64,000 nt of DNA from Halorutilus salinus (GCF_026242195.1 NZ_RKLV01000002.1:1-64000), one strand, 5' to 3'. Shown: positions 5,395-46,958, counted from the stretch's first letter. Numbers and translations: made by a program. Notes: generated by a model from the sequence alone, not told the origin.

Positions 5395-5466
5395 CATCGT
5401 CGTTACTTTACTACGGTGACTAACAGCGGGGAAAAGTTTATTTTTGCCACGTTCGTACCCGAACAT

Positions 5467-6453: not shown

Positions 6454-6462
6454 CCGCCCGCT

Positions 6463-6869: not shown

Positions 6870-6891
6870 ACGCATCGGTAAGCTATCTCGG

Positions 6892-6901
6892 CATAAATAA
6901 G
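6892..6901 (-). promoter_or_regulatory. TATA box of the rpl39e-tif6-ftsY operon
   Basis: CTTATTTATG on the minus strand is centred about 27 bases before the rpl39e start, the spacing expected for a leaderless archaeal transcript. serS diverges from the other side; a weaker GGTTAAACAC box at 6916-6925 lies about 32 bases before the serS start. Confidence 0.7.
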
Positions 6902-6952
6902 GTTCGATTGGCAAAGGTTAAACACCGTAACGCCGAACGGGCGACCACCAAG

Positions 6953-29782: not shown

Positions 29783-31255
29783 TCAGAACACGAGGTAGTT
29801 ACGTTCCTCGTCCTGCTCCGAGATCCATTTCGTCTCCGTCATCTCGTCTATTATCCATTCGCCGTTGAACCTGCCGACGCCCGACTGCTTCACACCGCCG
29901 AAAGGCATGTGTGGTTCGTCGTGCATCGGCTGGTCGTTGATATGTACCATACCCGCCTCGATTCCGTCGGCGAGGTCGCGAGCGCGGTCGAAGTCCTGAC
30001 AGTGTACGGCGCTCGAAAGACCGTACTCGGTATCGTTCGCAATCTCAACAGCCTCGTCGTCATCCGAATAAGGAATGATAGGCGCGACGGGTCCGAAGTG
30101 CTCGTTGCACGCCGCCGACATCTCGTTGGTCGCGTCCGAAAGGACGGTGGGTTCGACGAAAAGACCGTCGGCGTCGCCACCCGTTTCGAGCGTAGCCCCC
30201 GCGTCGACGGTCTCCTCTATGAAACGCAGGATCTGATCCCTCTGCGACTCGTTGATCAGTGGACCGATGATGTTCGAAGCGTCGCCGGGGTCGCCGACAC
30301 CGAGATCCTCGACGCGTGAGACGAACTCGTCGACGTAGTCGTCGTAGACATCCTCGTGGACGATATGACGGTTGATGGAGACGCATATCTGTCCTTGGTG
30401 CATGAACGTCCCGAACATACCCGCCGTAACCGCCCAGTCGAGGTCGATGTCGTCCGTAACGACGTACGGACAGTTACCGCCGAGTTCGAGAGCGACCTCG
30501 GAGACGTTGTCGCCCGCGAGACGTCCGACGCGTCGACCGACACCAGTCGAACCCGTGAAGTTGACCGACCCCGCGCGGTCGTCGCTCACGACGGCGTCGC
30601 CTATGTCCGAACCCTTCCCTGTGACGACGTTGAGGACGCCGTCGGGCAGACCCGCTTCCTCGAAAAGGCGCGCCACCGCGAGACCGCCGCTTATGGGCGT
30701 CTCCGTCGACGGCTTGAGAACGACGCTGTTCCCCGTGAGTACCGCGGGGGCGAGCGCACGCATCGCCATGTAGAACGGGAAGTTCCACGGGCATACGGTC
30801 GAAACGACCCCCACGGGTTCACGTACGACACGGTTGGTCTTTCCGTCGAACTCCGAACCGTACTCGCTCTCCATATCGTCGAACCCCGCCATCCAGTCGA
30901 CGATGTTACGCGCGAAGTTGAACTCCCCCATCTGCTTCGCCATCGCGCTCCCCGCCTCAACCTGCAGAAGCTCCTTTATCTCGCTCATACGTGACATCAT
31001 CGTCGAGTTGAGCTCGCGCAGGAACTCCTGACGCTCCTCGTGCGAACGTGCGCCCCAGTCCTCCTGCGCCTCCTCCGCGGCGTCGAAGGCGTCCTTTACG
31101 TCGTCCTCGTCACACGCGGGAACCTGAGCGATGACCTCCTGCGTCGACGGATCCTGTACCTCGGTGCTTCCGCCGTCGGGCGTGTACCATTCGCCGTCTA
31201 CGTAGATTCTGTTCCAGTCGGCGTCGGTCGAGTAATGCTCCTCCTGAATCGACAT
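29783..31255 (-). CDS. NAD(P)-dependent aldehyde dehydrogenase
   Basis: A 490-residue aldehyde dehydrogenase. The nucleotide fold has CPWNFPFYMAMRALAP and FTGSTGVGRRVGRLAG; the general-base glutamate is in ALELGGNCPYV and the nucleophile cysteine in GQICVSINR. VHINDQPMHDEPHMPFGG and KQSGVGRF close the domain. The frame runs back to 31399, but the ATG at 31255 starts MSIQEEHYS and sits 27 bases after a TATA box, so I use it. Substrate unknown. Confidence 0.92.
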   Translation of the reverse strand: MSIQEEHYSTDADWNRIYVDGEWYTPDGGSTEVQDPSTQEVIAQVPACDEDDVKDAFDAAEEAQEDWGARSHEERQEFLRELNSTMMSRMSEIKELLQVEAGSAMAKQMGEFNFARNIVDWMAGFDDMESEYGSEFDGKTNRVVREPVGVVSTVCPWNFPFYMAMRALAPAVLTGNSVVLKPSTETPISGGLAVARLFEEAGLPDGVLNVVTGKGSDIGDAVVSDDRAGSVNFTGSTGVGRRVGRLAGDNVSEVALELGGNCPYVVTDDIDLDWAVTAGMFGTFMHQGQICVSINRHIVHEDVYDDYVDEFVSRVEDLGVGDPGDASNIIGPLINESQRDQILRFIEETVDAGATLETGGDADGLFVEPTVLSDATNEMSAACNEHFGPVAPIIPYSDDDEAVEIANDTEYGLSSAVHCQDFDRARDLADGIEAGMVHINDQPMHDEPHMPFGGVKQSGVGRFNGEWIIDEMTETKWISEQDEERNYLVF

Positions 31256-31287: not shown

Positions 31288-31424
31288 TCTGCCGCAGACG
31301 GACGGTGTGCACGCTCACCAAGCCTGTTCTCTCATAGGGTATGCGTCGCCGTGTAAAGCTTCTCCAAACCCACACAGTTTCGAGTAGTCTGAGTTCCAAA
31401 GGAGAAGGATACCCTATGCTGTCG

Positions 31425-33059
31425 TTATCCTCCGTCGGCTACTGCGGTTCCTTCCGGGGTATTCTCGGTTTTGTTCCGGGTACTGAACCGATCGAGTTGT
31501 TTTTGGAGCTTGTCGGCGTTCTGTGAGAGGGACTTTGCTCCGGAAGCTATCTGGGATATAGAGGCGGTCTGTTCTTCGGTGGCGGCTGCGACGCCTTCAA
31601 TTTCGTCGCTGGTCTTGCGGCTTCTGTCGGTGGCTTCACCTACCATAGCAACGACCTCTTCTGTGGCGGCGGCCTGTTCATCGGTGGCTTCGTTTATAGA
31701 CTGGACGCCTTGGTTAGCCTCGGAGACGTATTCTGTTATCTCTTCGATGTCTTCAATGCCTTGTTCTACCCTTTCGACGGCTTCTGAGACGGTCTTACGC
31801 ATGTTGCGTATCTCGGAGACGGAGTCGGAGGTTATCTCTTGCACGTTGGTTATGAGCTTATCGACCTGACGTGTGGAGTCGGCTGTTTCCTCGGCTAAGT
31901 CCTTGATTTCGTCGGCAACGACGGTGAATCCCTCGCTTCCCTGTTCGGACCGTGCGGCTTCGATTGAGGCGTTTATAGCGAGCATATCGGTCTCGTCGGC
32001 GATTTCGTCTATCACATCGACTATTTCGCCTATCTGCTCCATCTCTTGGTCGAGTTCTTCTATACTGTCGGCGATTTCGTCGGCATCCTGTTCGAGCTGG
32101 TTCATCTGTTGGAGGATGCCGGACGTGCGGTCGTTTGCGTCGTCGGCGCGTTCGTTGGCGTCTTCGGAGAGCTGTGCGACCTCACCGGAGGTAGAGGCGA
32201 TCTCTTCGATGGTAGAAGAGAGGCTGTTCATCTCTTCGCTTACGGTTTCGAACCTTTCGTTCTGTTCGGAGATGGCTGAGGATATCTTCTCCGCGCTCTG
32301 GTTTATTTCGGTGCTTGTGTCTTCCATCTCCCCGACCCCGGTTTCGACCTCGACGCTTATCCGGTCGACGTCGTCGGAGAGTTGTTTGACAAGATCCATG
32401 GTGGACTCGAGGTCATCGAGCATGCTGTTGAACGAGACGGCGATACGTTGCATCGCCTCGTTCTCCGTTTCCTCGTCCAAACGTTCCGTTAGGTCTCCGT
32501 CGGCGACCCTTTCGATCTTTTCGCCGTAGTTTCGCGCCTGTCTCCGTAGCGATTCCGCTCTCTTTTCGGCTTTTTCACTTTCCTCTTGTGCTCTATTTTC
32601 TGCATCGCGTGCCTCCTTTGCTACCGTCTCCGCTTCGGATATCCTATCCTGAAGCTTACCGGCTAGATCCTCTATCCCTCGGTAAACCTCTCCTATCTCA
32701 TCCGGGCGCTGTTCCTCTATCTCTATACCGTACTTTCCGTCCGCGATATACCTGTTTGCCTCCTGCAGGTTCTTGATTATGAGGTACATCTCGCCGTATA
32801 TGAAACCTCCCGCACCGAGAACCAAAACGGCGATTATCGCTGTCATTACGGGATCACGTAGGACTAAACCGGCATAGAGAATGCTGATACCTGTGGCAAC
32901 CACGGCATGCACCCATAGTTGCCGGTTAAGCGTCTTCCGCCAGAACTTCGGTGTATAACCCTTGATTCCGTTTGAGATACGTGACATAATCGACCAAATG
33001 AGAGCAGAACCTGAACCGGAGGGGGATACTGTAACCTGTTCTTGATCCTGTTGACTCAT
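31425..33059 (-). CDS. Methyl-accepting transducer (Htr-type)
   Basis: A 544-residue chemotaxis/phototaxis transducer. Two membrane helices (about residues 48-68 and 71-96) are joined by only a few residues, so there is no external sensor domain. Two HAMP-like linkers follow (near 95-150 and 185-235), then a long methyl-accepting coiled coil whose hairpin tip, ETDMLAINASIEAARSEQGS and FTVVADEIKDLAEE, binds CheA/CheW. A rhodopsin partner is not next to it. The signal may be membrane energy, a cytosolic ligand or a partner protein. Confidence 0.9.
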   Translation of the reverse strand: MSQQDQEQVTVSPSGSGSALIWSIMSRISNGIKGYTPKFWRKTLNRQLWVHAVVATGISILYAGLVLRDPVMTAIIAVLVLGAGGFIYGEMYLIIKNLQEANRYIADGKYGIEIEEQRPDEIGEVYRGIEDLAGKLQDRISEAETVAKEARDAENRAQEESEKAEKRAESLRRQARNYGEKIERVADGDLTERLDEETENEAMQRIAVSFNSMLDDLESTMDLVKQLSDDVDRISVEVETGVGEMEDTSTEINQSAEKISSAISEQNERFETVSEEMNSLSSTIEEIASTSGEVAQLSEDANERADDANDRTSGILQQMNQLEQDADEIADSIEELDQEMEQIGEIVDVIDEIADETDMLAINASIEAARSEQGSEGFTVVADEIKDLAEETADSTRQVDKLITNVQEITSDSVSEIRNMRKTVSEAVERVEQGIEDIEEITEYVSEANQGVQSINEATDEQAAATEEVVAMVGEATDRSRKTSDEIEGVAAATEEQTASISQIASGAKSLSQNADKLQKQLDRFSTRNKTENTPEGTAVADGG

Positions 33060-33150
33060 ACCTGTGGATTCTCGAAGAAGAACAAAAAACTACTTGTAAC
33101 TCTATCAGATCTGATACCAGACCTCTAACCACCTATCCGGTAGCTACCTT

Positions 33151-33255
33151 TCCCCGTGCCGCGTTTCGCGCCCATAGGTGTAGAGTTAAGCGACATAGCC
33201 GTCGCGCACGAGACGCCTCTCGAAGAGGTCGGCGGGCGTGTCGGTATCGACGCGT
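33151..33255 (+). repeat. Partial duplicate of the fen1 5' end
   Basis: This stretch aligns without gaps to 35675-35779, the upstream edge and first 27 codons of fen1. I count 91 of 105 matches (72 of 79 after the start codon). The start codon is ATA instead of ATG, and similarity stops abruptly at GACGCGT. Several differences are silent or conservative, so the copies diverged as related genes rather than by random decay. Confidence 0.85.
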
Positions 33256-33390
33256 CCGTGACGTATCCGTCCTCTGGTACCCGTCGTTGATAGCCTCAAG
33301 AACCGGACCGCGCGTCGAAGGTAGTCTATGTAACCCCGAACCGCCGGAAACCCCGCGACCTGCGTAAGATGAACAGGCTACCATATATGA

Positions 33391-33657
33391 CAAACTGATA
33401 TCTCCTATGAACTTTCGAAACAAGGCGCTACTACAGGGAGAGGAGACGGAACAATACACCAAGATTATGACCCTGAATATAAGAGATTCTTTATGAATGG
33501 TGTACAGAGTGAGGGTGGAGACTCAGGGGGACCCGTTGTTGAGGAGTGGCTTAATTACTCCTTGGTAGCAGGAATACACGTCGGAAGTAGAGGGGATAGA
33601 GGACCATACTGTATGTCTATGGAAGACATTGAGTTCAGTTTAGACGTGGTTGTATGA
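33391..33657 (+). pseudogene. Trypsin-like serine protease, C-terminal fragment
   Basis: An open frame of 88 codons without its own beginning: SKQGATTGRGDGTI matches the loop before the active site of S1 proteases, GGDSGGPVV holds the catalytic serine with its oxyanion glycine, and LVAGIHVGSRGD is the strand after it. The catalytic His and Asp regions are missing; a TGA at 33388-33390 precedes the frame and the fen1-like fragment lies just upstream. The stop overlaps the next gene by ATGA, showing that protease and lipoprotein were once one operon. Confidence 0.75.
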
Positions 33658-34517
33658 ACCTGGGACGCCGAAGCTTCGTGGCTACCGTCGCCGTAGTCAT
33701 GTCAGGATGTATCGACGGAGAAAACGATACTCCCGCAAATGATAACGAAGAGACCAACGGAACCGATACCGAGAACCAGACCGACGAGTCGCTAAACGAG
33801 TCGGAGTACGGTGGCTTAGCTGAGGAAGGCACGCGGATATTCGAAGAGGAAGTGAACGTTGAACTACCGTATGGAGACGATTATTCGCCACAAGAACTGC
33901 TTATTTATAACTCGGGGGAGAAGAAGGTAGACGCAACAGTTCGAATACTAGAGGACGGCGAAGTAATCTACTCCGTGACCCTTGTACAAGAGGAGGGGCG
34001 CGGTTACAGGTATCCGGAGTTCATGGCTAAGACAGGCGAATTCGAGGTTGAGGTAGAGCTGGATGAAGAGGCACACGAACTCGAATGCAAGACGGGACCG
34101 GGGTTTAGCAACATGGCTGTTGAACTCCCCGAAGTCAAAGGATGTACGAGTCCTAAGCATGCGAACATAACCATCCGGAGGGTCACGGAGACACCCGACG
34201 AGGTAGATCCTGTGTCTTCCGAGGAACCCTCGGAGTACGATACCGTCGAATACTATGTCGAGTGGTACAGAGACTGTAAGGACAACCCTGAGGAGAAAGA
34301 CCTGTGCGCGACCGAGAACGGTGAACTCGACTTCGCACGTGGCGGGGTTTCGGGCAGGTCTTACGAGGAGTTTGAACGTATCATAGAGAAGTTCCCGAGC
34401 TACGGATCGGAGGAGGACGGTTATCCGACAACGGAGAAGGACGGTTATCCGGCAGGGACGTACATCCGGCACGACGGCGAGATATACGTCTTCAGAATGC
34501 TCTTTGCAAGGGCGTAA
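33654..34517 (+). CDS. Secreted lipoprotein, partner of the protease fragment
   Basis: A 287-residue lipoprotein: GRRSFVATVAVVMSGC gives a Tat-like twin arginine and a lipobox, followed by a Thr/Asn/Asp/Glu-rich linker. The folded part has a beta-sandwich look (LPYGDDYSPQELLIYNSG, then KVDATVRILEDGEV and GEFEVEVELDEE) with cysteines in ELECKTG and VKGCTSPK, and a C-terminal YVEWYRDCKDN...YIRHDGEIYVF domain. The same two-part plan recurs in the next gene, so they are paralogues. Function unknown. Confidence 0.7.
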   Translation: MNLGRRSFVATVAVVMSGCIDGENDTPANDNEETNGTDTENQTDESLNESEYGGLAEEGTRIFEEEVNVELPYGDDYSPQELLIYNSGEKKVDATVRILEDGEVIYSVTLVQEEGRGYRYPEFMAKTGEFEVEVELDEEAHELECKTGPGFSNMAVELPEVKGCTSPKHANITIRRVTETPDEVDPVSSEEPSEYDTVEYYVEWYRDCKDNPEEKDLCATENGELDFARGGVSGRSYEEFERIIEKFPSYGSEEDGYPTTEKDGYPAGTYIRHDGEIYVFRMLFARA

Positions 34518-34522
34518 CATCC

Positions 34523-35641
34523 GTGACGGGATACCAGTTCGAAGATGACCGGCGTGTACTCTACGCAACTGTTGCCGGTCTTGTACTCGTCGCTTGCGCG
34601 GGGGTTCTGTACGCCGTCGTTAATCTCGGAGGAATGCGACCATCCACGGTAGGTGTTGACGCAGAAATTACAGAGAATTCAACCTCAGGCGAGGTGACAG
34701 TTACCGTTAGAAGCATAGAAAACAGGGTGGAGGGGCTGAACATCACCACCGAACACGGAGGAGGGACCGGAGAACTCCTGACCGGGGTCTCCGAGGGCGA
34801 CGCGGTGACGTTGGAAGCGGTCGATGAACCCGACTGGCGCGAGAACGGCACGGGTACGTACGACGCCGACGGCGATGAGATACAGGTGGTGGCGGTACTC
34901 AACGACACGCGGGTTATCGTTGTCTCACACGAGACAGATACTGTCGGTGATGACCCCGATAACGCGACCCAGAACACGGACGACCGGAACGACGGTCTTC
35001 GACGTGGCGACGTAGAGGTTGTGAACGAGAGCTTCTACGTCGAGTCGCCGTACGGCGGCGAACCCGCTAAGCCGATGCAGGTCATCAACGACGGCGACGG
35101 CACGGTGGGCGGAACAGTTGAGGTCTTCGAAGGGGACGATCGTCTGTATGCCGCCGAACTCAGGATGGCGAGCGCCAGTACCTACACCGATGCGTTTGAG
35201 ATAGGACGCGAAGGCGAGTACGAGGTGCGTGTCAACACCGACAGCGACAAAGCCACAGGAACGTGGCGCGTCCGTGAAGGCTATCCGAGGCTCGTCGTTC
35301 TACTTGACCAACCGAAGGTCGTCTCTGTCGCTACGCGGGGCTACGTTGAGGTGACCGCACACGGATCCGCGCCCGAAGACGCCCAAACCGTCACCTCCGA
35401 CGAACTGGCGAAGTACGAACCTGTCTACGGTATCGTGGTCGAATACCACCGCTGTAGGCTCGAAACCGACGACGAGGACTGTGAGGGTGGCGGAGAGGTA
35501 GCGGGTGACGACTGGGTGAACGCCACCGATGCTGTGGACGAGCTTCCTCTGTACAACGGCGAAGGCGGACTGTCGGGCGTCTACGTCGAACACGAGGGCG
35601 AGATATACAGCTTCGGCATTACGACACAGCTGTCCGGGTGA
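34523..35641 (+). CDS. Membrane-anchored protein with pilin-like and paralogous surface domains
   Basis: A 372-residue protein starting at a GTG five bases after the preceding gene. One N-terminal helix (about residues 12-33) anchors it. Residues 40-135 resemble the beta domain that follows the helix in haloarchaeal type IV pilin-like proteins (GEVTVTVRSIENRVEGLNI ending GDEIQVVAVLNDTRVIV). From about 165 it parallels the neighbouring lipoprotein: SFYVESPYGGEPAKPMQVIN, GTVEVFEGDDRLYAAEL, IVVEYHRC and YVEHEGEIYSF. Function unknown. Confidence 0.65.
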   Translation: MTGYQFEDDRRVLYATVAGLVLVACAGVLYAVVNLGGMRPSTVGVDAEITENSTSGEVTVTVRSIENRVEGLNITTEHGGGTGELLTGVSEGDAVTLEAVDEPDWRENGTGTYDADGDEIQVVAVLNDTRVIVVSHETDTVGDDPDNATQNTDDRNDGLRRGDVEVVNESFYVESPYGGEPAKPMQVINDGDGTVGGTVEVFEGDDRLYAAELRMASASTYTDAFEIGREGEYEVRVNTDSDKATGTWRVREGYPRLVVLLDQPKVVSVATRGYVEVTAHGSAPEDAQTVTSDELAKYEPVYGIVVEYHRCRLETDDEDCEGGGEVAGDDWVNATDAVDELPLYNGEGGLSGVYVEHEGEIYSFGITTQLSG

Positions 35642-35697
35642 CGCGGAAGACACCGATACGCCGACAGTTCTTTTTCGCCGCGCCGTCTTTCGCCACC

Positions 35698-36684
35698 ATG
35701 GGAGTAGAGTTAGGCGACGTAGTGGTCGCGCACGAGACACCTCTCGAAGAAGTCGGCGGGCGTGTCGGTATCGACGCGTACAACGCCCTCTACGGCTTCC
35801 TCGCTAACATACGCGGACGCGACGGCGAACCGCTCAAGGACTCGAAGGGGCGCGTCACGTCCCACCTCAGCGGCCTTCTGTACCGTACGGCGAACCTGTA
35901 CGAGGCGGGAATCAAGCCGTGTTACGTCTTCGACGGCGAACCGCCCGCTTTGAAGCAGAAGACGCTCGAACAGCGCGATGAGCGTAGGAGCGATGCGGAG
36001 GAGGCGTACGAGGAGGCGGCGCGGCGCGGCGACGAGAAAGCGATGTTGAAGCACGCGCAACAGGCGACGCGTCTCGAACCGCCGCAGGTAGAGACGTCGG
36101 TAAACCTCCTCGACTCACTCAACGTTCCCTGGCTCGAAGCACCCGCCGAGGGCGAGGCACAGGCTGTCCGTATGTGCAGGGACGACGCCCTCAACTCCGT
36201 GGGTTCGCAGGACTACGACTCACTTCTTTTCGGAGCGCCGACGCTCGTCCGTAACCTTGCTATACGCGGACGCGGGGGCGACGAACTCGTCCCTGAACGT
36301 ATCGTCCTCGAAGAGACGCTCGATGAGCTCGGCTTGACACGCGAGCAACTTGTCGAGGTCGCGGTTCTCATCGGGACGGACTACAACGACGGTATACACG
36401 GCTACGGTCCTAAGACCGCCCTCGAAACGGTGCGCGACGGCGGTTTCGACGAGGCGGTCGACGAACACGCCGACGAGTTCGGCGTCGACGTTGACGACGT
36501 GAAGACGCTGTTCCTCGAACCCCAGACAACCGGCGACTACACGGTTGAATGGGAGACTCCCGACGTTGACGCCGCCGTCTCGCTGCTCGTCGACGAACAC
36601 GACTTTTCGCGCGACCGTGTCGCCTCCGCCGTCGGACGTATCGAGGACGCCACCACGCAGTCGTCGCTCGACAGGTGGTCGTAG
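35698..36684 (+). CDS. fen: Flap endonuclease FEN1
   Basis: A 328-residue 5' flap endonuclease for Okazaki fragment maturation and repair. It begins MGVELGDVV; the frame is open from 35638 but the ATG at 35698 is the family start. Acidic metal motifs are VFDGEPP near 80, PAEGEAQAVRM near 145, SQDYDSLLFG near 167 and IGTDYNDGIHGYGPKTAL near 224. The end TQSSLDRW is a PCNA-binding PIP box. The 5' end is duplicated at 33151-33255. Confidence 0.96.
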   Translation: MGVELGDVVVAHETPLEEVGGRVGIDAYNALYGFLANIRGRDGEPLKDSKGRVTSHLSGLLYRTANLYEAGIKPCYVFDGEPPALKQKTLEQRDERRSDAEEAYEEAARRGDEKAMLKHAQQATRLEPPQVETSVNLLDSLNVPWLEAPAEGEAQAVRMCRDDALNSVGSQDYDSLLFGAPTLVRNLAIRGRGGDELVPERIVLEETLDELGLTREQLVEVAVLIGTDYNDGIHGYGPKTALETVRDGGFDEAVDEHADEFGVDVDDVKTLFLEPQTTGDYTVEWETPDVDAAVSLLVDEHDFSRDRVASAVGRIEDATTQSSLDRWS

Positions 36685-36785: not shown

Positions 36786-38555
36786 ATGGACGAAAACGAC
36801 GAGGCGATACGGACACCCATAGTGAGCGTCCTCGGGCACGTCGACCACGGAAAGACGACGCTTCTCGACGAGATACGCGGAAGCGCCGTCGCCGAGGCTG
36901 AGGCGGGCGCGATCACACAGCATATAGGCTCTACTGTCGTCCCTATCGACGTTATCGAACGTATCTGTAACCCCGACGAGGAGTTCGACCTTCCGGGTCT
37001 CCTTTTCATAGACACGCCCGGACACCACGCCTTTACGACCCTCCGTTCGCGTGGGGGCGCACTCTCCGACATCGCCGTCCTCGTCGTCGACGTAAACGAC
37101 GGCTTCCAGCCTCAGACCGTAGAGGCTGTCAAGATACTCGACAGGACGGAGACGCCTTTCGTCGTCGCGGCGAACAAGATAGACGCGGTACCCGGATGGA
37201 AGACGCAGGAAGACGCGCCGTTCGCAGAGACGTTCGCCGAGCAGTCGGAGCGCGTACAGAACGATGTCGAGAACGCGCTGTACGAGATAATCGGCGACCT
37301 ACACGACAACGGGTTTCAGGCGGACAGGTACGACCGTGTAAACGACTACAGATCGACAATAGGCGTCGTCCCCGTCAGCGCAGAGACGGGCGAGGGAATA
37401 CCCGACCTCCTTATGGTACTCGTGGGTCTCGCACAACGTTTCCTTACTGAGAGCCTCACGACGCGCCCCAACGGTTCGGGCGAGGGTACCGTCGTGGAGG
37501 TCAAGGAGAAGAAAGGTCTCGGTACGACGGTCGACGTACTCGTCTACGACGGTGTCGTCGAGGTGGGCGATACGGTCGTCGTCGGCGGGCAGTTGGATCC
37601 TATCGTGACCGAGGTTCGCGCACTCCTTGAACCGTCGGAGAAGGTCGAGATAAACGAGGAGGACGAGTTCAACCGCGTCGACCGCGTCGTAGCGGCGGAG
37701 GGTGTCAAGGTCGCCGCCCCTGAACTCGACGACGCGATGGCGGGCGCACCTTTCGTCGTCGTAGGCGAGGACGACGAACTCGGCGATGTCACCCAACGCG
37801 TCCGTAGCGAGATGGACGAGATAGGCGTCGAAACCGCCGAGGACGGTGTCGTCGTAAAGGCGGACACCGTGGGTTCGGTCGAGGCGGTCGCAAAGGCGCT
37901 TGACGACGCCGAAGTACCTATCATGAACGCGTCCGAGGGCGCTGTCTCGCGCCGCGATATCGTCGACGCAGAGACGGCGGACGAACGCGAGCACCGCGCC
38001 GTCATCGCTTTCAACGTCGATGTACTCGAAGACGCACGCGAGTATGCCGACGAGGCGCTTGTCAAGCTCTTCGAGGGCGACGTAATCTACCGTCTCATAG
38101 AGGAGTACGAGGACTGGGTCGAAGGCATGGAGGAGGAGCGCGCCGAGAACGTGCTCGACTCCGTCGTCCTACCCGCCAAGTTCCGCGTGATGCACGACCA
38201 CGTCTTCAGACAGTCCGACCCTGCGGTCGTCGGCGCACGTATACTGTCAGGCACACTCGAAAGAAACGTCACCGTCGAACGTATGGGCGAGCGACTCGGT
38301 ACTGTACAGGGGATACAGAGTCAGGGCGACGATATCGACGAGGCGACCGAGGGCGACGAGGTGTCGGTCGCAATCGACGGACCCACGGTCGGACGCGATC
38401 TGAAGGAGGGCGACGTTCTGTACACCTCCGTACCCGAGAAACACGCCAAGGCGCTCGAACAGGAGTTCGACGAACTACTCGACGACACGACGCGCGAGGC
38501 GCTCGACGGATATCTGGAGCAGAAGCGGCAGGTCGACCCGTTCTGGGCAAAATAG
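36786..38555 (+). CDS. infB: Translation initiation factor aIF5B
   Basis: A 589-residue translational GTPase promoting subunit joining and initiator tRNA placement. P-loop GHVDHGKTTLLDEIRGS at about residues 17-33, G3 DTPGHHAF near 77, G4 NKID near 132. Domains II-IV follow with KEKKGLGTTVDVLVYDG and SVEAVAKALDDAEVPI. Length is typical for archaea. The gene marks the left edge of an accessory region: an integrase operon starts 53 bases after its stop. Confidence 0.95.
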   Translation: MDENDEAIRTPIVSVLGHVDHGKTTLLDEIRGSAVAEAEAGAITQHIGSTVVPIDVIERICNPDEEFDLPGLLFIDTPGHHAFTTLRSRGGALSDIAVLVVDVNDGFQPQTVEAVKILDRTETPFVVAANKIDAVPGWKTQEDAPFAETFAEQSERVQNDVENALYEIIGDLHDNGFQADRYDRVNDYRSTIGVVPVSAETGEGIPDLLMVLVGLAQRFLTESLTTRPNGSGEGTVVEVKEKKGLGTTVDVLVYDGVVEVGDTVVVGGQLDPIVTEVRALLEPSEKVEINEEDEFNRVDRVVAAEGVKVAAPELDDAMAGAPFVVVGEDDELGDVTQRVRSEMDEIGVETAEDGVVVKADTVGSVEAVAKALDDAEVPIMNASEGAVSRRDIVDAETADEREHRAVIAFNVDVLEDAREYADEALVKLFEGDVIYRLIEEYEDWVEGMEEERAENVLDSVVLPAKFRVMHDHVFRQSDPAVVGARILSGTLERNVTVERMGERLGTVQGIQSQGDDIDEATEGDEVSVAIDGPTVGRDLKEGDVLYTSVPEKHAKALEQEFDELLDDTTREALDGYLEQKRQVDPFWAK

Positions 38556-38561
38556 ACCTTA

Positions 38562-38584
38562 AAGTATACACAACGTATATACTT
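38562..38584. promoter_or_regulatory. Inverted repeat over the TATA box of the RHH-integrase operon
   Basis: AAGTATA (38562-38568) and TATACTT (38578-38584) form a perfect seven-base inverted repeat nine bases apart. The right arm lies about 26 bases before the ATG at 38608 and also serves as the TATA element, so a bound repressor would shut off transcription. The product of the first gene is a likely binder, by inference. Confidence 0.5.
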
Positions 38585-38607
38585 CTGTAGCAATTAGGGC
38601 CACCTGT

Positions 38608-38976
38608 ATGAGCGATGAAAAACCACTCATAACTCTCAGGCTGGGTGAAGAAAAACAGGACCGATGGGACGAGTATATCCAAGATAACGGGGAAGTCAAC
38701 AATAGAAGCGAGTTGATACGCCGGTCGGTAAGTTACTATATGAATAGAGACCGGGAGCGTGATGTCCAACTTATAGATGTGCTTGAAGAGATGAAGGAAA
38801 TGAGACAAGATGTCCGGCTCGCAAAGCAGTCCATAGAGAACGTGGAAAGCCGACAACTCACGTTTGAAGACGTAGTAGCCGCATCAGAGGAAGCGGAGGC
38901 AGGCGATATAGACCAGATAGAGTCCATGATTGAGGAGGTTCAGGACTCTGCGGGATTAGGTGATACCGATGGATGA
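38608..38976 (+). CDS. Ribbon-helix-helix protein preceding an integrase
   Basis: A 122-residue protein. Residues 7-50 resemble a ribbon-helix-helix DNA-binding domain (LITLRLGEEKQDRWDEYIQ, then NRSELIRRSVSYYMN). The rest is a charged coiled coil. It overlaps the integrase start by eight bases. Small DNA-binding proteins coupled to the integrase gene are known from the SNJ2-type pleolipovirus integrase operons of haloarchaea, where they assist recombination; a similar role here is inference. Confidence 0.65.
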   Translation: MSDEKPLITLRLGEEKQDRWDEYIQDNGEVNNRSELIRRSVSYYMNRDRERDVQLIDVLEEMKEMRQDVRLAKQSIENVESRQLTFEDVVAASEEAEAGDIDQIESMIEEVQDSAGLGDTDG

Positions 38977-39937
38977 GTGGGAGTATGACGAGATAGATGA
39001 TGAGGATATGCGAGATTATCTTGATAGAATCCGTCTAAGAAGGTCTGAAAACGATTTTCATCGGACTAAGGATGCCCTGCGTAAGTTTACCGGCTTTTTA
39101 GAATACATAGGGGCTGATTCGTACGAAGAAGTCGGTGTTGAAGAACTCGAAATATATATTGACTACCTACTGGAGGATGGTTTGAATGATACCTCTATCA
39201 AGAAGGTCTATCTCTCGCAGGTAACGAATTTTCTAAAGAAAAAAGGTGTGGTGCGGGACAGTATCCACGATAAACTCGATACAGAGTTCCTGTCTGATGA
39301 GTCGATTGCGAGCAGACAGGGGGAAGAAGACGTTCACTATGTCACGAAGGAAGAGTATGTGGAGATGCTTGAGGCTACCGAGACCCTCCGCGAAAACCTC
39401 ACCTTGAGGTTACTGTGGGAGACAGGAGTCAGGAGGGGTGAAGCTGTAGGGATAAAATTGGAGCACATTGACCGGGATAAGAAGCAGATATACGTTGATA
39501 ATCTGAAGAATGATGACGACAGGTACGTCTACTACACGTCACACCTGTCAAGAAAGCTTAGAGAGTGGCTGGATATGGGTGGACGAGAACAGTACTCAAA
39601 GGCGGCTGAATCCGAGTACCTGCTCATATCAAATCAGTCTGTTAAGTTACAGGATAAGCGGATAAACGAGAAGGTCAAAGAGATAGCTAAGAGAACCGAG
39701 AACGTAGGTGAGGTAATAGGGGAAGACGCTATGGATAGAGAACTATATAAGCCCACGGCGCACAGTTTCCGTCACTCGTTTGCGATACATAGAGTGAGAA
39801 GCGGCATGCCTATCAACTTCCTGAAGGAGTTGATGGGGCATATGTCTGTGGAGACGACTGAGTTCTATCTCAACTTCCGTGAGCAAGATATCAAGGAGAT
39901 AAACGAGGGGTACGCTCCTCGTGTTAATGCGGTCTAA
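38969..39937 (+). CDS. Tyrosine recombinase/integrase
   Basis: A 322-residue integrase. The N-terminal core-binding domain (about 10-105) is followed by a catalytic domain with the full active-site set: R155 in TGVRRGEAVG, K180 in the beta-hairpin, H265 and R268 in HSFRH, H291 in LMGHMS and the nucleophile Y300. The set is complete, so the enzyme may be active. Codon use is AT-richer than in the surrounding core genes. No matching attachment repeats were found around infB by eye. Confidence 0.92.
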   Translation: MDEWEYDEIDDEDMRDYLDRIRLRRSENDFHRTKDALRKFTGFLEYIGADSYEEVGVEELEIYIDYLLEDGLNDTSIKKVYLSQVTNFLKKKGVVRDSIHDKLDTEFLSDESIASRQGEEDVHYVTKEEYVEMLEATETLRENLTLRLLWETGVRRGEAVGIKLEHIDRDKKQIYVDNLKNDDDRYVYYTSHLSRKLREWLDMGGREQYSKAAESEYLLISNQSVKLQDKRINEKVKEIAKRTENVGEVIGEDAMDRELYKPTAHSFRHSFAIHRVRSGMPINFLKELMGHMSVETTEFYLNFREQDIKEINEGYAPRVNAV

Positions 39938-40167
39938 CTCTCATTGTCTAAACGTCTCTCTATATCTTCCGATAGGGTGTACTCCTTGCTTCCATTCTTA
40001 CCCTCTGTGACCTCTCTGAACACGTCATTTCTAACCAACGAATAATAGACCTCTCTAGTTAGTGTCCCATCCCTAACCGCTTCATCGTAACTGAAACTTG
40101 AAGGAAGTTCTTTGAGTTGCTCTTTGTGGCTATGCGCCAATGCTACCCGTTTACTTACCATTACCAC
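39934..40167 (-). CDS. Small winged-helix-like protein opposite the integrase
   Basis: A 77-residue protein whose stop overlaps the integrase stop by four bases in convergent orientation. LPSSFSYDEAVRDGTLTREV followed by YYSLVRNDVFREV looks like a short helix-turn-helix with a wing (EGKNGSKEYTLSEDI). Possible DNA-binding accessory of the integrated element; function not assigned. Confidence 0.5.
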   Translation of the reverse strand: MVMVSKRVALAHSHKEQLKELPSSFSYDEAVRDGTLTREVYYSLVRNDVFREVTEGKNGSKEYTLSEDIERRLDNES

Positions 40168-40378
40168 CCCCTATGAGCAAAATTATTACACTCATATATA
40201 CATGAATGAAATAGTGGCAAAAATAATTAACCCAGACACCCGCAGAAATCCAAAGAATTCTCCGAAGAAAATCCCACAGAAATCCGAAGACAGCCCTTCT
40301 CCGACAATTAAACAGAGGTTCAGGGGGAGTTACCCCCTAGGTCTATGGGTAATGCGCAAGCGGCGATAGTCACTAACG

Positions 40379-40831
40379 ATGGGTCTTGAGGAATACCGGG
40401 TGGAGAGGGAACACAGTCAGATGAGCGAAGGAGACCCGGTTTACTCACCGGAGCACGGCTACCTGGCGTACTATATCCGGGAAGGAAAAGACTCCTACAT
40501 AGCGACTGATGACGATGGATTAGTCTCTGTGGAAAGACCCATCTGGAAAGTAGTTTCCGAGATTCAGGATAGGGACAGACTGTATTCCGAGGACAGTCAA
40601 GAGATAATGGCTGACAAGATAGCCACGTACGAAAGGGAAACAGCTGACTGGATATACGATAAGGATACGTACGACTGTGACGTGTACAAAGCCGGTGAAG
40701 GCTACATCATCCACAAAAAACCCGTCTCTGAGGATAACAGGTACATCTACCGAGAAAGCCTCAGTGACCTACCCTCGTTCACCTGGTTCGATGACGACTA
40801 CTCAGATGAACTAATCACCAGGATTTTGTAA
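40379..40831 (+). CDS. Hypothetical protein of the accessory region
   Basis: A 150-residue soluble protein rich in Tyr, Asp and Glu (YSPEHGYLAYYIREGKDSYI, then YKAGEGYIIHKKPVSEDN). No membrane segment or known motif is recognised. The upstream 210 bases are AT-rich and hold no convincing gene. It belongs to the foreign block that starts with the integrase. Confidence 0.5.
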   Translation: MGLEEYRVEREHSQMSEGDPVYSPEHGYLAYYIREGKDSYIATDDDGLVSVERPIWKVVSEIQDRDRLYSEDSQEIMADKIATYERETADWIYDKDTYDCDVYKAGEGYIIHKKPVSEDNRYIYRESLSDLPSFTWFDDDYSDELITRIL

Positions 40832-40835
40832 GTCT

Positions 40836-41325
40836 CTATTCCGCTAGTTCCTCAAGCATCCGTATTCCCTGGTCCACGACCGCATCCGATATGAACATGT
40901 CTGTCTCATCGGACAGAGCACGAATCTTGGAGGTCGCCTTTTCCAAATCCACCTCATCCTCGCTGAAGCCTGCGACTATTACACCCACGGAGCCGTGAAC
41001 CTCAACACCGAGTTCCTTAGCCTGTTCACGAGCCTCCAAGTCGTCCGTGAGGAAGACCACATCTTTGCCCATTACCAAACACGGAAAGAGCCGCCGCCTC
41101 GCCTCTATCGAGACCGCTGTACTCCTCCTCTTTGTTCCCCTCCACCACATCGTACTCTAATGCATTCAATCCTTCAGGAGAACCTCCTGCTGATACCTCT
41201 TCCACGACAGCTTCAGGTATGACCAGTCGGTCGAATATAGCTAGCAGACTTAGTGAGTCTACCTTACCGAGATGGATAATAGGTCCTGCGTCTACGACCG
41301 CGGTATCTAAGCGTTCAGACCCCAT
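40836..41325 (-). pseudogene. PIN-domain (DUF3368-type) toxin broken by one-base frameshift
   Basis: Two overlapping minus-strand frames make one PIN toxin. The first gives TAVVDAGPIIHLGKVDS, AVVEEVSAGG and LDRGEAAALSV; the second continues GKDVVFLTDDLEAREQAK, GSVGVIVAGF. Dropping one base from the AAA run at 41077-41079 (plus strand) would join them as AALSVLVMGKDVV, a normal toxin of about 162 residues. Either a recent inactivation or a sequencing error. It overlaps its antitoxin by 19 bases. Confidence 0.75.
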
Positions 41326-41552
41326 TCGATGTCGTCCTTCATAACGTCAACCTCCCTGTCAGACCTCTTCACCTTTTCAAGACCAACGAGGTCAACCGCC
41401 TCCTCTCTATCGATATTTCCTTCAACGTACTCGGAGAGGACGTACTCATCCCACAGGCTTTCTACGCCCTTTTCGAGAGCCTCCTCAATCACCTGAGATT
41501 CGGGAACCCCTTGTTCATCCGCCAACTTTTCTACCCTTTCGGTGATTCCCAT
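41307..41552 (-). CDS. Antitoxin of the broken PIN toxin
   Basis: An 81-residue acidic protein (MGITERVEKLADEQGVPESQ, ALEKGVESLWDEYVLSEYVE) with a short RHH-like N-terminus and a C-terminal toxin-wrapping tail. Directly upstream of and overlapping the PIN gene, which is the usual antitoxin position. Family membership is inferred from context. Confidence 0.6.
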   Translation of the reverse strand: MGITERVEKLADEQGVPESQVIEEALEKGVESLWDEYVLSEYVEGNIDREEAVDLVGLEKVKRSDREVDVMKDDIEWGLNA

Positions 41553-41749
41553 ATATATCCGTTAAGTCCTGAGTTACTTACGGGTTTCGCTAGTTCACGT
41601 TGTAAACCACCCTGACCGGAGAATGCAGAATCCGTATGATAGAGATATACCAAAATCCGTGTCACCTCCCGATTAGTAGATGTAAACCGGCGACGGAAGG
41701 CTAATGTCTCAGGGAACGTGGTTCTCTAAATCTGCTCCAACTTGTCGAA

Positions 41750-42247
41750 TTATTCTCCGGTTATCTCGTCCAGCTTGCCGAGAATATCCGAGTAGAATGA
41801 GGTCGAGCAGTACCAACCAGCGTCTACCATCCCGTCGAGTATCACTCTCGCTTCCTCAGCGGTTTTCTCACCGTTCTTCACAGACCGAAGAAGGAGGAAA
41901 GCCGTCCCACGAACGTCTATTCCCTCGACCTTCGCTACTGTTCGTCCTCTCCTTTCGTCCATAACGGCGGTTGCGTCCTCTGCATGAGCGAACCCCGGAA
42001 CCTCAGCGTCCACGTTACTCAGCTTCTCCGAACCGGAGAGACGGCGGTAAACCTCGCTGTCGGGTGTCTCTCGAACCTCAACACCATACCGCTCCACACG
42101 TCTCGCATCGTGGGCTTCGGCTTTCTTTCCGTCAACTACGACCTCTTCGTGAACGCCCTCCGTGGTCACGACATCGAACCCATCGAGAACGTCGAGCGAC
42201 CCCGCCTTAGCCAGATAGATTAGCGGGGTAGCATCAAGGACATACAC
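41750..42247 (-). CDS. PIN-domain (DUF3368-type) toxin
   Basis: A 165-residue PIN nuclease. MYVLDATPLIYLAKAGSL contains the first catalytic aspartate, GVHEEVV an acidic residue, and AEDATAVMDERRGRTVA the central Asp pair; GIDVRGTAFLLL is the strand-helix characteristic of DUF3368. It follows its antitoxin by three bases. Such toxins cleave RNA, often tRNA or mRNA, when freed. Intact. Confidence 0.83.
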   Translation of the reverse strand: MYVLDATPLIYLAKAGSLDVLDGFDVVTTEGVHEEVVVDGKKAEAHDARRVERYGVEVRETPDSEVYRRLSGSEKLSNVDAEVPGFAHAEDATAVMDERRGRTVAKVEGIDVRGTAFLLLRSVKNGEKTAEEARVILDGMVDAGWYCSTSFYSDILGKLDEITGE

Positions 42248-42250
42248 GCT

Positions 42251-42535
42251 CTACACCGCCTCAAGGTCTTCCTCTGCTTCGTCTACCCAAGAGATGTCGT
42301 TCTCCTTCAGGTACTCCGAGAAACTCCACACGTCCGTCTCAGCTATCTCCACGGCACGGCTGAAGGATACATCGCCTTCTTCGAGTAGCGAGACGGCACG
42401 TTTGAGCTTCCAGTCGTCAAGTCCCTCAGAGAGTAGCTTCCTGACAGCAACGCTCCTCTCTAAGTTCTCTTCCTCAACGTATTCGTCCAACTCCCTTTCG
42501 AGGTTATCTGGTAGACGGGCTGATACTGTTCCCAT
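42251..42535 (-). CDS. UPF0175-type antitoxin
   Basis: A 94-residue protein: TVSARLPDNLERELDEYVEE is the ribbon-helix-helix part, SVAVRKLLSEGLDDWKL the second helix, and KRAVSLLEEGDVSFSRAVEI matches the UPF0175 antitoxin domain partnered with DUF3368 toxins. Two CATAG copies nine bases apart (42543 and 42552) lie between its start and a TATA-like AGCATACAAAAGG, a possible autoregulatory site. Confidence 0.78.
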   Translation of the reverse strand: MGTVSARLPDNLERELDEYVEEENLERSVAVRKLLSEGLDDWKLKRAVSLLEEGDVSFSRAVEIAETDVWSFSEYLKENDISWVDEAEEDLEAV

Positions 42536-42736
42536 GTGTATACATAGTATTCATAGCATACAAAAGGGTTGTGCTGTCGGGGGTGGTCGTATGGATGTCC
42601 GAGAGTTTGTACGCGGTTCCGAGACATCTTGTTCATACGCTAACTCCTCTACGCTCTCAGCAAATACCATACTACAGATGACGTTGACTCAGTTACGGTT
42701 TTATATGACCGGATAGATGTAGCTTGGAGCGGCGTA

Positions 42737-43048
42737 TCAGAAGCCAGCCGAGTAACTCGTCTGCGCTACGCCGTACTCCGCCGACGTTTCGGACTCACTA
42801 ACTACCGTACCGTCTTCCAGAACCTGTATCCGAAGAGTTTCTCGGTTTGCCTCCTGCTTCTGGGCGTTAGCGGAGATTATCGAAGGACTTCCTGAGATAT
42901 CTAACTCCGTCGTTCCCTGCCCTTGGGTTGACCTCGTGTTACCGCCCGCGGATACTGCTCCGGTCCAACTACCGCTGTACTCAACGCGGATCGTGTACTC
43001 CGTCCCATCTGTACCCGTTCCCGGAATATCGCCCGTGTCCTGCACCAT
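42737..43048 (-). pseudogene. 5'-truncated haloarchaeal surface protein gene next to the IS element
   Basis: About 103 residues with a beta-rich pattern: YTIRVEYSGSWTGAVSAGGN, STQGQGTTELDISGSP, IISANAQKQ, LRIQVLEDGTVVSESETSAEYG. It resembles the C-terminal domain of secreted haloarchaeal proteins that normally follow a signal peptide and linker. Those are missing: the frame runs upstream into the hairpin-rich edge of the IS605 element, so the 5' part was removed or separated. Confidence 0.6.
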
Positions 43049-43269
43049 GATACATAGTCGAGCGCATACCCCCGTCTTCAGGCGTTCGTCAATCTTTGAT
43101 TGACGCGCCATCGAAGCTACGCTTCGAGACGTATGCGAATCGAAGATTCGCTTGCTCGTAAATCGAAGATTTACGAACGGGGGTCAAGCGACAACACTCC
43201 TAACCAACGGACTTCGTAGACCTGCCGGATTTCACACTATGCCCAAAGCCTAAGTACACGGGTCGTATA

Positions 43270-43671
43270 GTGTGCGGTGTGGCAAAGACAACACGGCACG
43301 CTACCTACAACCTGAACTACCATATAGTGTGGATACCCAAGTTCAGAAAGCCGATACTGGAAGGTGAGGTAGCAAGCCGTGTCGAAAAAATATTCCGTGG
43401 GATAGCCGACGACAAGGGTCTTGAGATAATCGACCTGACCATAGAACCCGACCACGTACACCTGTTCGTAAGTGCGCCTCCGAAGCACGAGCCGTCGCTA
43501 CTCGTCAACTGGTTCAAGGGTATATCCTCGCGGAAGTACAACTACCACTACGCCGACAACGAAGATGAGAAGATAAACTGGGCGAGAGGATACTACGTCG
43601 GCTCCGCCGGAGAGGTATCGAGTGACACCATACAGGACTACATCCGAAGGCACGAGGAGGACGAAGTATGA
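43270..43671 (+). CDS. tnpA: IS200/IS605 transposase TnpA
   Basis: A 133-residue Y1 single-strand transposase. The HUH motif is DHVHLF (H62, H64), and the catalytic tyrosine is Y124 in IQDYIRR. TTRHATYNLNYHIVWIPKFR is the standard start; a GTG at 43279 (VAKTTRH) is an alternative first codon. All key residues are present, so the element may still move. The stop overlaps tnpB by ATGA. Confidence 0.94.
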   Translation: MCGVAKTTRHATYNLNYHIVWIPKFRKPILEGEVASRVEKIFRGIADDKGLEIIDLTIEPDHVHLFVSAPPKHEPSLLVNWFKGISSRKYNYHYADNEDEKINWARGYYVGSAGEVSSDTIQDYIRRHEEDEV

Positions 43672-45038
43672 GGGTCACGAAGACGCTTGAGGTCAAGCTG
43701 TTCGACCCGAACACCCACAAGCGCGAGAAGTTCCGTGAGACGTACAGAGAGTTTCAGAAGGCGTTGAACGACGCCTTCGACTCGGACTGTGGTACTCAGT
43801 CCGAAGCCAACGACGTGGTAGTGGACTACGACCTTTCGGGGTACGCCAAGAACGCCCTCAAGAAGTACGTACCTCAACTCGTCCGCGACGGCACACAGGA
43901 GTTAGACGACGGACACCCTGTACGGTTCACCAACGAAGGTGTCAGGATAGACCACAAACCGCAGAACGCGACAGAGTGGTACGTCAAGATACCGCACCAC
44001 GAGGACTACCACCTCTGGTGTCCCGCAACCATCAACCCCGAACAACGCGACTGGATAGAAGCTATCTACAACGACGACGCGGAACTGGGTGAGGTGCGTA
44101 TGTTCCCGCGTGGAGACGAGTGGCATCTCCATTTGACCGTCCATCGAGAGGTCGAGGATGCCGACGTTTCGGAGTCGTGTACTCCGATAGGTGTGGATAT
44201 AGGAGAAACTGCGCTCGCAACGGTGTGTCACCTTGACGAGTTCGGTTCTCCTACTACACCTAAGATATTCAGCAGAGAAGGTAGCAGGGTGCGAGAACTC
44301 CGAGAGGAATATTTCACCACGAGCAGACGCCTACAAGAGCGTGGCTCCGAAAAGCTGTTGGAGAAGCGTGGCGATAAGATATGGCGGCGGATAGACGACA
44401 TCGTGCATACTGTCACACGGCGTGTCGTGGAGTACGCAGAAAGATTTGAGGATGGCGTACTCGTCCTTGAGGACCTAACGTACCTCCGCGAGAACATGGA
44501 TTATGGAGCGTACATGAACCGTCGTCTACACGGCTGGGCGTACGCTCAGATACACGCTCAGATACGGTACAAGGCGGAGGAGAAAGGCATTCCTGCCGAG
44601 ACCGTGAATCCAAGGGATACCAGCAAACGGTGTCATGAGTGTGGTGAAGAAGGTTCTCGACCGCACCAAGCTACCTTCCGATGTACCAACAACGACTGTT
44701 GGGTATCCGAGTTCCAAGCCGATGTGAACGGAGCAACGAATATAGCACGACGCTATCTCGAAAATCGGAGATTTTCGACGAGTACGCGAATACCCGATTC
44801 GCTTGACCTCCACGGAGAGAGCCGTCAGCAAAAGACTGGCGGCGATGACTCGGTGGAGGACGGGGCTGTTGCGAGCGTAAGCTCGCCACCCTCTGAGCTT
44901 CGCTCAGAGACTGAGTTGACACAGCCACAAGACAGTCCAACAGAGGGCGAAACCCGCCCGACGACGTTCGCCAGACGGTGTCTGGCGAGCCATCCAGACG
45001 CGGAGCGTCTGGAGACGTTGGAAACGGATGCGTCTTGA
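43668..45038 (+). CDS. tnpB: RNA-guided nuclease TnpB (IS605 accessory protein)
   Basis: A 456-residue TnpB. RuvC residues are D177 (GVDIGE), E268 (LVLEDL) and D352 (QADVNGA); the zinc ribbon is C322/C325/C339/C344. All are intact. The last 90 residues (from about 367) are low-complexity and are encoded by the hairpin-rich 3' region that in this family also forms the guide RNA scaffold. TnpB proteins are guide-RNA nucleases that cut empty donor sites and so help retain the element. Confidence 0.93.
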   Translation: MRVTKTLEVKLFDPNTHKREKFRETYREFQKALNDAFDSDCGTQSEANDVVVDYDLSGYAKNALKKYVPQLVRDGTQELDDGHPVRFTNEGVRIDHKPQNATEWYVKIPHHEDYHLWCPATINPEQRDWIEAIYNDDAELGEVRMFPRGDEWHLHLTVHREVEDADVSESCTPIGVDIGETALATVCHLDEFGSPTTPKIFSREGSRVRELREEYFTTSRRLQERGSEKLLEKRGDKIWRRIDDIVHTVTRRVVEYAERFEDGVLVLEDLTYLRENMDYGAYMNRRLHGWAYAQIHAQIRYKAEEKGIPAETVNPRDTSKRCHECGEEGSRPHQATFRCTNNDCWVSEFQADVNGATNIARRYLENRRFSTSTRIPDSLDLHGESRQQKTGGDDSVEDGAVASVSSPPSELRSETELTQPQDSPTEGETRPTTFARRCLASHPDAERLETLETDAS

Positions 45039-45208
45039 AACCTTAGGGTAGCAAGCCCGAAATCCCGTGACGGGATTCCCGCGTACGTCAATCGCAGATT
45101 GAGGTGCTCGTCAGAGCGTGGCTCTGACGAACGTCTTTAGGCGTTCAGAAATCGAAGATTTCTGAGCCAATTAGACGCCCTGCGTCTGATGACGCGGGAG
45201 GATGTCAA
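44871..45208 (+). ncRNA. Probable TnpB guide RNA (omega/reRNA) scaffold at IS right end
   Basis: Consecutive perfect hairpins: 44871-44886 (GCGAGC/GCTCGC), 44891-44909, 44968-44988, 44994-45012, 45061-45077, 45089-45101, 45109-45129, 45146-45164 and 45173-45187. TnpB guide RNAs of IS605 elements arise from the tnpB 3' end through the right end, with the guide taken from flanking DNA. Here the guide would begin just after 45208. Extent and processing are inferred from family knowledge. Confidence 0.5.
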
Positions 45209-45673
45209 ACGCTGAAGGAACTCTTCCTGAGTGATCTCACCGGAGTCAAGTTCGTCTATCCACTGGGACTCGATATAGTAGGAACCCACGGGAAACTCAT
45301 CTGAGTCCAGTACGGTCACCTCTAATGAGTCTACATCCCATCCACCTATGACGCCGTTCCTGTATATCCCTGCCACCGTACCTATCTCTCCGGCTATTCC
45401 TTCCTCGGTGGTCTCCGTACTCACGTACTCCAAAAAGACCGTGCCAGCGTCCTCGGAGAAGTATGCCACAGATACTCCTTCAGACCCAAGGCTATCCCGC
45501 ATGTTCGAAACATAATCCGTGGTGGAACCTCCCGTTGGCTCCTGCTCATCCCCATCCCACTGTTGGTTCTGTTCCCCGGTATCTGTTGGCTCGGTGTCGC
45601 TGGGTTCGGTGGAGTCTATGGAGTCTGCTGTATCCCCATAGTCCGACGGTACGAAAGCACCCCCTGCAAGCAC
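45137..45673 (-). pseudogene. Secreted protein gene truncated at both ends
   Basis: The frame gives a hydrophobic start (IIVVGVLAGGAFV), a Thr/Ser/Asp/Glu-rich linker and a folded part (VSVAYFSEDAGTVFLEYVST, SLEVTVLDSDEFPVGSYYIE, ITQEEFLQR). On the 5' side it meets a stop and the duplicated quinone oxidoreductase fragment, so its proper start (a GTG at 45673 is the only candidate) is doubtful. On the 3' side it runs into the IS605 right end near 45208; the last 20 or so residues are element sequence. Confidence 0.6.
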
Positions 45674-45685
45674 CCCGACTACTAT

Positions 45686-45748
45686 TATGATACGTAGAAG
45701 CTACGGGGTACGGCGACAGCAACGTTCTCGAAAACACGACCTACCCGA
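45686..45748 (+). repeat. Partial duplicate of the quinone oxidoreductase 5' end
   Basis: This stretch repeats the beginning of the gene at 46959. 45693-45735 matches 46967-47009 at 41 of 43 bases; the start codon region (TATGA) and a later CTACCCGAA also correspond, with a short gap between. The rest of the gene is absent here. Confidence 0.85.
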
Positions 45749-45892
45749 ATGCATAGAGAACGCGCTTGTTTCGCAGGCTCCCCCACATCTTAGAACCCGT
45801 GTGACAGAGATATACGGAACAGATCCTGTTTCCCGATTACCGGAGATTAACGGAGGACGGAAGCCTGTCGGTTCGCGTAAAAACTGATATGG

Positions 45893-46105
45893 TCAGTACC
45901 CGAACTCCTCACGCACCTCCTCTACCTTCTCCTCCTCGGCGTGACCGTGTACTAAACCTCGGAAGTAGAACTCCCTCGCCACCCTCGCGATCTCCTCCTC
46001 GCCACCGTCCGTATCTATGATACCCTCCTCAGCGAGTTCGCTTACGTTCTCGGCTATCTCGTCGCTCGTGTACCTCTCCTTGACGGTACCCTCTATCCGT
46101 GCCAT
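45893..46105 (-). CDS. Small acidic hypothetical protein
   Basis: A 70-residue helical protein (MARIEGTVKERYTSDEIAEN, VSELAEEGIIDTDGGEEEIA, RVAREFYFRGLVHGHAEEEK). No known family is recognised. It lies between the duplicated oxidoreductase fragment and the intact gene, on the opposite strand, 40 bases after the larger gene upstream; they may be co-transcribed. Confidence 0.5.
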   Translation of the reverse strand: MARIEGTVKERYTSDEIAENVSELAEEGIIDTDGGEEEIARVAREFYFRGLVHGHAEEEKVEEVREEFGY

Positions 46106-46145
46106 GATGAAGATACGTACCCTGCGGTATTAAATCCGACCCCGT

Positions 46146-46874: not shown

Positions 46875-46927
46875 GCGTAGGGTTCGTAGCCCGCGAACAT
46901 AAACGGCTTGACACACGACTTGACACA

Positions 46928-46938
46928 GCTTTATCAAC
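46928..46938 (+). promoter_or_regulatory. TATA box of the quinone oxidoreductase gene
   Basis: GCTTTATCAAC is centred 26 bases before the ATG at 46959. It lies just outside the region copied at 45686-45748, so the duplicate lacks this promoter. Confidence 0.6.
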
Positions 46939-46958
46939 TGCGCCCACGAAGGGGATGT

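Follow-up and report, generated by a model that had tools for sequence, protein, structure and literature searches.

The window analysed here, a 64,000-nt stretch of the Halorutilus salinus genome, carries a truncated second copy of the 5' end of the flap endonuclease gene fen1, which is separated from the working gene by a decayed protease gene and two surface-protein genes. In our judgement the locus is probably the scar of a recombination at a gene edge, in which accessory genes were acquired by an event resembling homology-facilitated illegitimate recombination (HFIR), the flanking core gene supplying the homology that served as anchor. One relative exhibits an empty site, another carries cargo directly on its fen1, no integrase was found between the two copies, and at least three comparable scars are present at other core genes. 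Events of this type are already known, and fen1 provides one clear case rather than a new system. The features of the locus are:

29783-31255, minus strand: aldehyde dehydrogenase gene, ancestral left neighbour of fen1 (Pfam Aldedh, E=2e-158)
31425-33059, minus strand: methyl-accepting chemotaxis (htr/MCP) gene, GC 0.53 (Pfam MCPsignal, E=8e-37)
33149-33255, plus strand: relic of the fen1 5' end (25 nt upstream plus codons 1-27, ATG changed to ATA)
33256-33653, plus strand: remnant of a Tat-type trypsin-like protease gene (match to the paralogue at G000:C13:69519-70817)
33654-34517, plus strand: gene 1, Tat-type lipoprotein of 287 aa (61% identical paralogue at G000:C13:72351)
34523-35641, plus strand: gene 2, whose N-terminal membrane-anchored domain (~1-138) is fused to a lipoprotein domain (~158-372)
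35662-35674, plus strand: box CGACAGTTCTTTT just upstream of the working fen1, from sequence comparison
35673-35779, plus strand: working fen1 5' end matching the relic
35698-36684, plus strand: fen1, flap endonuclease (domain matches XPG_N and XPG_I)
36786-38555, plus strand: infB/aIF5B, conserved right neighbour

A repeat search aligned the relic (33149-33255) with the working 5' end (35673-35779) without gaps at 87% identity over 107 nt, with 14 of the 107 positions differing. Recounting the slightly shorter alignment of the preliminary description (33151-33255 and 35675-35779) returned the same 91 matches in 105 positions, and its observations that the stub has lost its start codon (ATA instead of ATG) and ends in codon 27 were confirmed, similarity stopping after that codon plus one base. 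When the fen1 region was compared with the whole 2.1-Mb genome by blast, the stub was the only strong second match (E=8.5e-31), followed by a match of 35 nt (E=6e-4). The repeat comprises 25 nt upstream of the ATG and 82 nt of coding sequence, and its similarity breaks off abruptly at 33255/35779; the last 28 nt of both copies are identical. Box CGACAGTTCTTTT, common to this genome and the relatives G001 and G002, is absent from the stub, whose clear homology to fen1 starts at -25, and is probably part of the fen1 promoter. With a GC content of 0.64, the stub lies between flanking segments of 0.53 and 0.49.

The segment between the copies contains a broken protease gene and two intact surface-protein genes, as had been described beforehand. 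The remnant retains the protease start (RDLRKM at 33354-33371, 18 of 18 nt identical to the intact C13 paralogue) and, around 33400-33651, part of the C-terminus including GDSGGP. Its central portion, which in the intact paralogue bears the expected His and Asp motifs, has been deleted, and its frames are broken. Gene 1 had no match in Pfam, NCBIfam or PHROG and its sequence no significant match in PDB, and its predicted structure (pLDDT 63, low confidence) consists of a beta-rich domain, likewise with no significant PDB match. The N-terminal domain of gene 2 occurs alone, directly upstream of fen1, in G002 (65%), and the two halves are separate adjacent genes in G003 (G003:C28). GC content is 0.49-0.53 in the MCP gene, the protease remnant and gene 1, compared with 0.61-0.63 in the neighbours, and is near the core value in gene 2, the right half of the cargo. 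The cargo represents one decayed instance of a FilR1/Tat-protease/lipoprotein module that exists in multiple copies. Its designation as a foreign operon is to be softened, since paralogues of the module occur in the same genome and family.

Comparison with relatives, all of them fragmented MAGs, revealed how the locus is organized elsewhere. The aldehyde dehydrogenase gene of G001 is followed after ~140 nt by fen1, with neither htr nor cargo, and in G003 one Usp-type gene lies between the two. For htr, the best matches in G001-G003 reach 27-38%, none of them a close orthologue, and the gene is a separate insertion; because it was itself inserted, the ancestral junction is that of aldehyde dehydrogenase and fen1. 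An uninterrupted htr-fen1 junction had been suggested as a check, and G001 does provide an uninterrupted junction, with aldehyde dehydrogenase in place of htr. G002, which is the MAG Ods01 of Candidatus Ordosarchaeia and belongs to the same genus as this genome (PMC10873845), was the sole close relative returned by a scan of genome contigs. Its order, with the gene-2 N-terminal domain on a normal fen1, is possibly the donor arrangement. The empty site in G001, the cargo on fen1 in G002 and the three sibling scars described below all support the earlier proposal that DNA was inserted upstream of fen1 and displaced the stub, the working 5' end of fen1 being either kept or gained.

The two fen1 copies differ at 8 of 82 coding positions, with 12-16 differences to G001 and G002. 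Both encode Glu4 and Glu17, at which positions G001, G002 and G003 all have Asp, and the informative sites of quartets favour copy with copy by 6:2:0, although the order of events read from fen1 alone draws on 107 nt with few informative sites. Because of the shared derived residues, the closest pairing and the quartets, both copies would postdate the split from G002 and are most likely members of this lineage. Measured against G001 and G002, the fen1 5' end shows no more divergence than other 27-codon stretches, and a foreign donor sought by this measure produced no anomaly. The idea of an independently foreign fen1 allele thus finds no support, given the sister relationship of the copies, their shared Glu4 and Glu17 and the normal 5' divergence, from which it follows that any donor would have been a near relative inside this lineage; none was found in relatives, viral contigs or plasmids. 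The private coding changes of the stub (start loss, G6S and V9A) are all non-silent, and those of the working copy are silent for the most part.

A survey for further scars was carried out with 180-nt tiles from all genes of at least 450 nt, which were searched for local extra copies outside genes; the genome, a 17-contig draft, was pieced together from stretches, and gene calls were our own and approximate. Eight local out-of-gene fragments were obtained, all of them gene edges in the same orientation as their gene and pointing outward, and none of 5823 internal tiles gave a local out-of-gene copy in this genome. Two of the eight are 5' ends, both upstream of their genes and in this window, and six are 3' ends, all downstream. 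Four represent the same type of scar, at fen1, a quinone oxidoreductase gene at 46959, a helicase gene and an ABC permease gene. The other four, all 3' ends, were set aside as IS-like pseudogene fragments (C12 and C11:134k), a short tandem repeat (C16) and an intergenic repeat (C11:107k). The second scar in the window consists of:

45692-45758, plus strand: relic of the quinone oxidoreductase 5' end (43 nt at 95%, 45693-45735, within a longer gapped match)
45759-46958: cargo of two minus-strand genes (45893-46105 and 46146-46874)
46959-47930, plus strand: PIG3-type quinone oxidoreductase gene, intact, downstream of its own relic

This relic matches 46959-47040, 1.27 kb downstream. Its cargo is absent from G001, G002, G003 and G013, and G002 has a single quinone oxidoreductase copy after infB and an AbrB/VapC-like pair. 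For the Lhr-like helicase on contig C15, the 3' relic measures 42 nt and is located at a distance of 3.5 kb; the helicase of G002 and G013 ends within 10 nt of a homoserine-kinase-like gene. The insert beside the C15 helicase holds the type of module found at fen1 (FilR1-like regulator, N-terminal protease fragment and a protein like the N-terminal part of gene 2). On contig C13 the ABC permease is separated from its 53-nt 3' relic by 0.7 kb of inserted DNA containing a pilin-like gene, and the permease of G002 has one 3' end that runs straight into the downstream gene. Each of the four scars thus has an empty site in some relative. In G003, ~0.4 Mb of which was surveyed, similar relics include a 66-nt copy of a tRNA-methyltransferase-like 5' end (94%), 1.75 kb upstream, and repeated FilR1-like 3' ends before protease copies. 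Lipoprotein pseudogene arrays also gave internal matches there, so that the restriction of fragments to gene edges applies solely to the genome of the window. Scars may be confined to edges because a core gene would remain functional only after events at its edge, which would therefore survive.

Inserts at the four scars measure 0.7-3.9 kb, and no integrase or transposase was found in them. Identity within the scar pairs is 83-95%, with no pair approaching 100%, and they have no visible core sequence in common, the 28 identical nt of the fen1 pair being unlike the others. Pooled over the four scars, the differences include 12 silent codons compared with ~5 expected under relic decay (p 0.0005-0.003), to which the quinone oxidoreductase pair contributes one silent and one non-silent difference, counted by eye. 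This excess means that part of the divergence accumulated under selection, either before the event took place or within the working copy, which alone is no proof of a separate allele. The earlier view of the copies as separate fen1 alleles fits the pooled differences, which are too silent for pure decay, but not the private changes of the stub at fen1, which are all non-silent, and separate evolution of the two copies is only suggested.

Under the preferred reading, the resident fen1 allele would have recombined with DNA of a near relative bearing surface-protein genes directly upstream of fen1. The right side would be anchored by homologous pairing inside fen1, and codon 27 of the resident fen1 would be the site at which the left end of the incoming DNA joined non-homologously. 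This DNA would restore a whole fen1 with a promoter, and the truncated resident 5' end would be stranded 2.5 kb upstream and subsequently decay. For fen1, it is the one-sided homology, the direction of the exchange and the donor that we infer. Three sequence features speak against an HFIR event, namely the non-silent private changes of the stub, as in a duplicate that decayed in place, the sister relationship of the copies and the near-core GC content of gene 2.

The first two of these features lend themselves to a different, rather unlikely account, according to which the cargo together with the fen1 5' end was duplicated in tandem within the genome, the left cargo was lost down to the stub, and htr was inserted. 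The two fen1 copies are indeed each other's closest relatives, the private changes of the stub resemble neutral decay, and the repeated units in G003:C33 (FilR1 3' end, promoter and protease start) would fit. However, the left cargo copy has left no trace, since the sequence upstream of the stub consists of htr and its promoter and repeats neither gene 2 nor the module, and at least two further events would be required. Duplication also predicts some young scars near 100% identity, of which none were found among the four, and the silent excess at the pooled scars speaks against it.

Integrative elements may have their attachment site at the edge of a gene that they make whole again, and the fen1 scar resembles their products in its direct repeats made of a gene edge and in the restored gene. 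A small element that inserted site-specifically in the fen1 start, brought a substitute 5' end of its own and had the 107-nt copies as attachment sites would account for a cargo flanked by direct repeats whose last 28 nt are identical and whose similarity stops there, and a XerA/C-like recombinase is encoded at 38969-39937, ~3 kb downstream of the second copy. We consider this improbable: the cargo is small, no integrase, recombinase or transposase was found among the genes between the copies, and the XerA/C-like recombinase gene is external to the cargo, in an island on the far side of infB that G002 lacks. In addition, the cargo was not matched in plasmids, nor were the repeat core and gene 2 in viral contigs. 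The occurrence of scars at both gene edges, the lack of detected recombinase or transposase genes in the inserts, the absence of a common core and the 83-95% identity together argue against site-specific integration as well as target duplication. Target duplications of transposons are usually far shorter than 107 nt and identical at the outset. Transposition with a long target duplication, for which IS200/IS605-type genes 8 kb away (43279-45038) could be invoked, is accordingly hardly credible given 107 nt at 87% and no transposase at the boundaries or between the copies. Hardly credible too is an assembly artefact, as might be suspected in a 17-contig draft, since 14 differences in 107 nt do not correspond to a duplicated read stretch and the contig spans 289 kb.

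The fen1 locus has its closest parallels in several described systems. HFIR has been described in naturally competent bacteria (PMC3240628; PMC2884548), where, as at fen1, novel DNA lies beside a conserved homologous gene and mobile-element enzymes are lacking; the far junction there is non-homologous, often with microhomology, as would be the one at fen1. The conserved homologous gene at one end is here fen1, on the right side, whole and intact. Unlike the bacterial cases, the fen1 event is read from old scars in an archaeal draft genome. Haloarchaea recombine readily, even across genera (PMC4500145). HFIR was also invoked for displaced gene ends in Vibrio; in the orphan immunity arrays of Vibrio T6SS clusters and Rhs loci, successive additions beside a conserved gene push the truncated old edge outward between cargo segments (PMC5361080), as seen here. 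In contrast to Vibrio, the anchors are housekeeping genes, used at the 5' (fen1, quinone oxidoreductase) or 3' end (helicase, permease), and the anchor is not swapped for a different gene. Additive horizontal transfer via homologous recombination in flanking genes (PMC11375855) similarly places added genes beside conserved neighbours; those cases were inferred mainly from conserved gene context, whereas a physical scar remains at fen1. The displaced, outward-pointing gene-edge stub serves as a physical signature of accessory surface genes added beside core genes, in a little-known lineage of halophilic archaea and for a type of transfer usually inferred from gene context alone. The gene-edge scan is a simple one that would allow events of this kind to be counted in any genome.

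The module itself consists of a FilR1-like regulator, a Tat trypsin-like protease, Tat lipoprotein arrays and a membrane protein, and besides fen1 is located at G000:C13:68567-75846, C15:58252-60753 and in G003:C33. The protease is broken in two of its three places in this genome and the surface-protein genes are intact. On a speculative and decidedly improbable reading, it would constitute an archaeal secreted-effector/immunity module spread by gene-edge recombination, with proteases lost and lipoproteins kept as orphan immunity genes, likened to the Vibrio T6SS arrays in which orphan immunity genes persist. Relevant to this reading are the protease losses, broken at fen1 and reduced to a fragment at the helicase. 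The module has no name and may merit a study of its own.

The surroundings of the conserved fen1-infB core appear, from the genomes compared, to be a plastic spot. In G001, 15 kb of urease-type and transporter genes separate fen1 from infB (G001:C373:2448-16252), including two ure-type genes duplicated in tandem (3657-5734 and 5870-7917, 74% identical). In the window, infB is followed by 8.3 kb that G002 lacks before the next conserved gene is reached. A 7-kb island after infB (38556-45691, with a low GC of 0.51), also absent from G002, encodes the XerA/C-like recombinase, ribbon-helix-helix and PIN-like toxin-antitoxin-type pairs and IS200/IS605-type tnpA/tnpB. A CRISPR array is located upstream of fen1 in G002 (G002:C129), at the contig edge, and large CRISPR arrays with a similar repeat are present on contig C15 of this genome (plus strand from ~126400, and minus strand; 51 and 41 repeat matches). 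Between the aldehyde dehydrogenase and htr genes lies a perfect 10-bp inverted repeat, CATAGGGTAT / ATACCCTATG (31333-31342 and 31409-31418), possibly a mobile-element remnant or a terminator.
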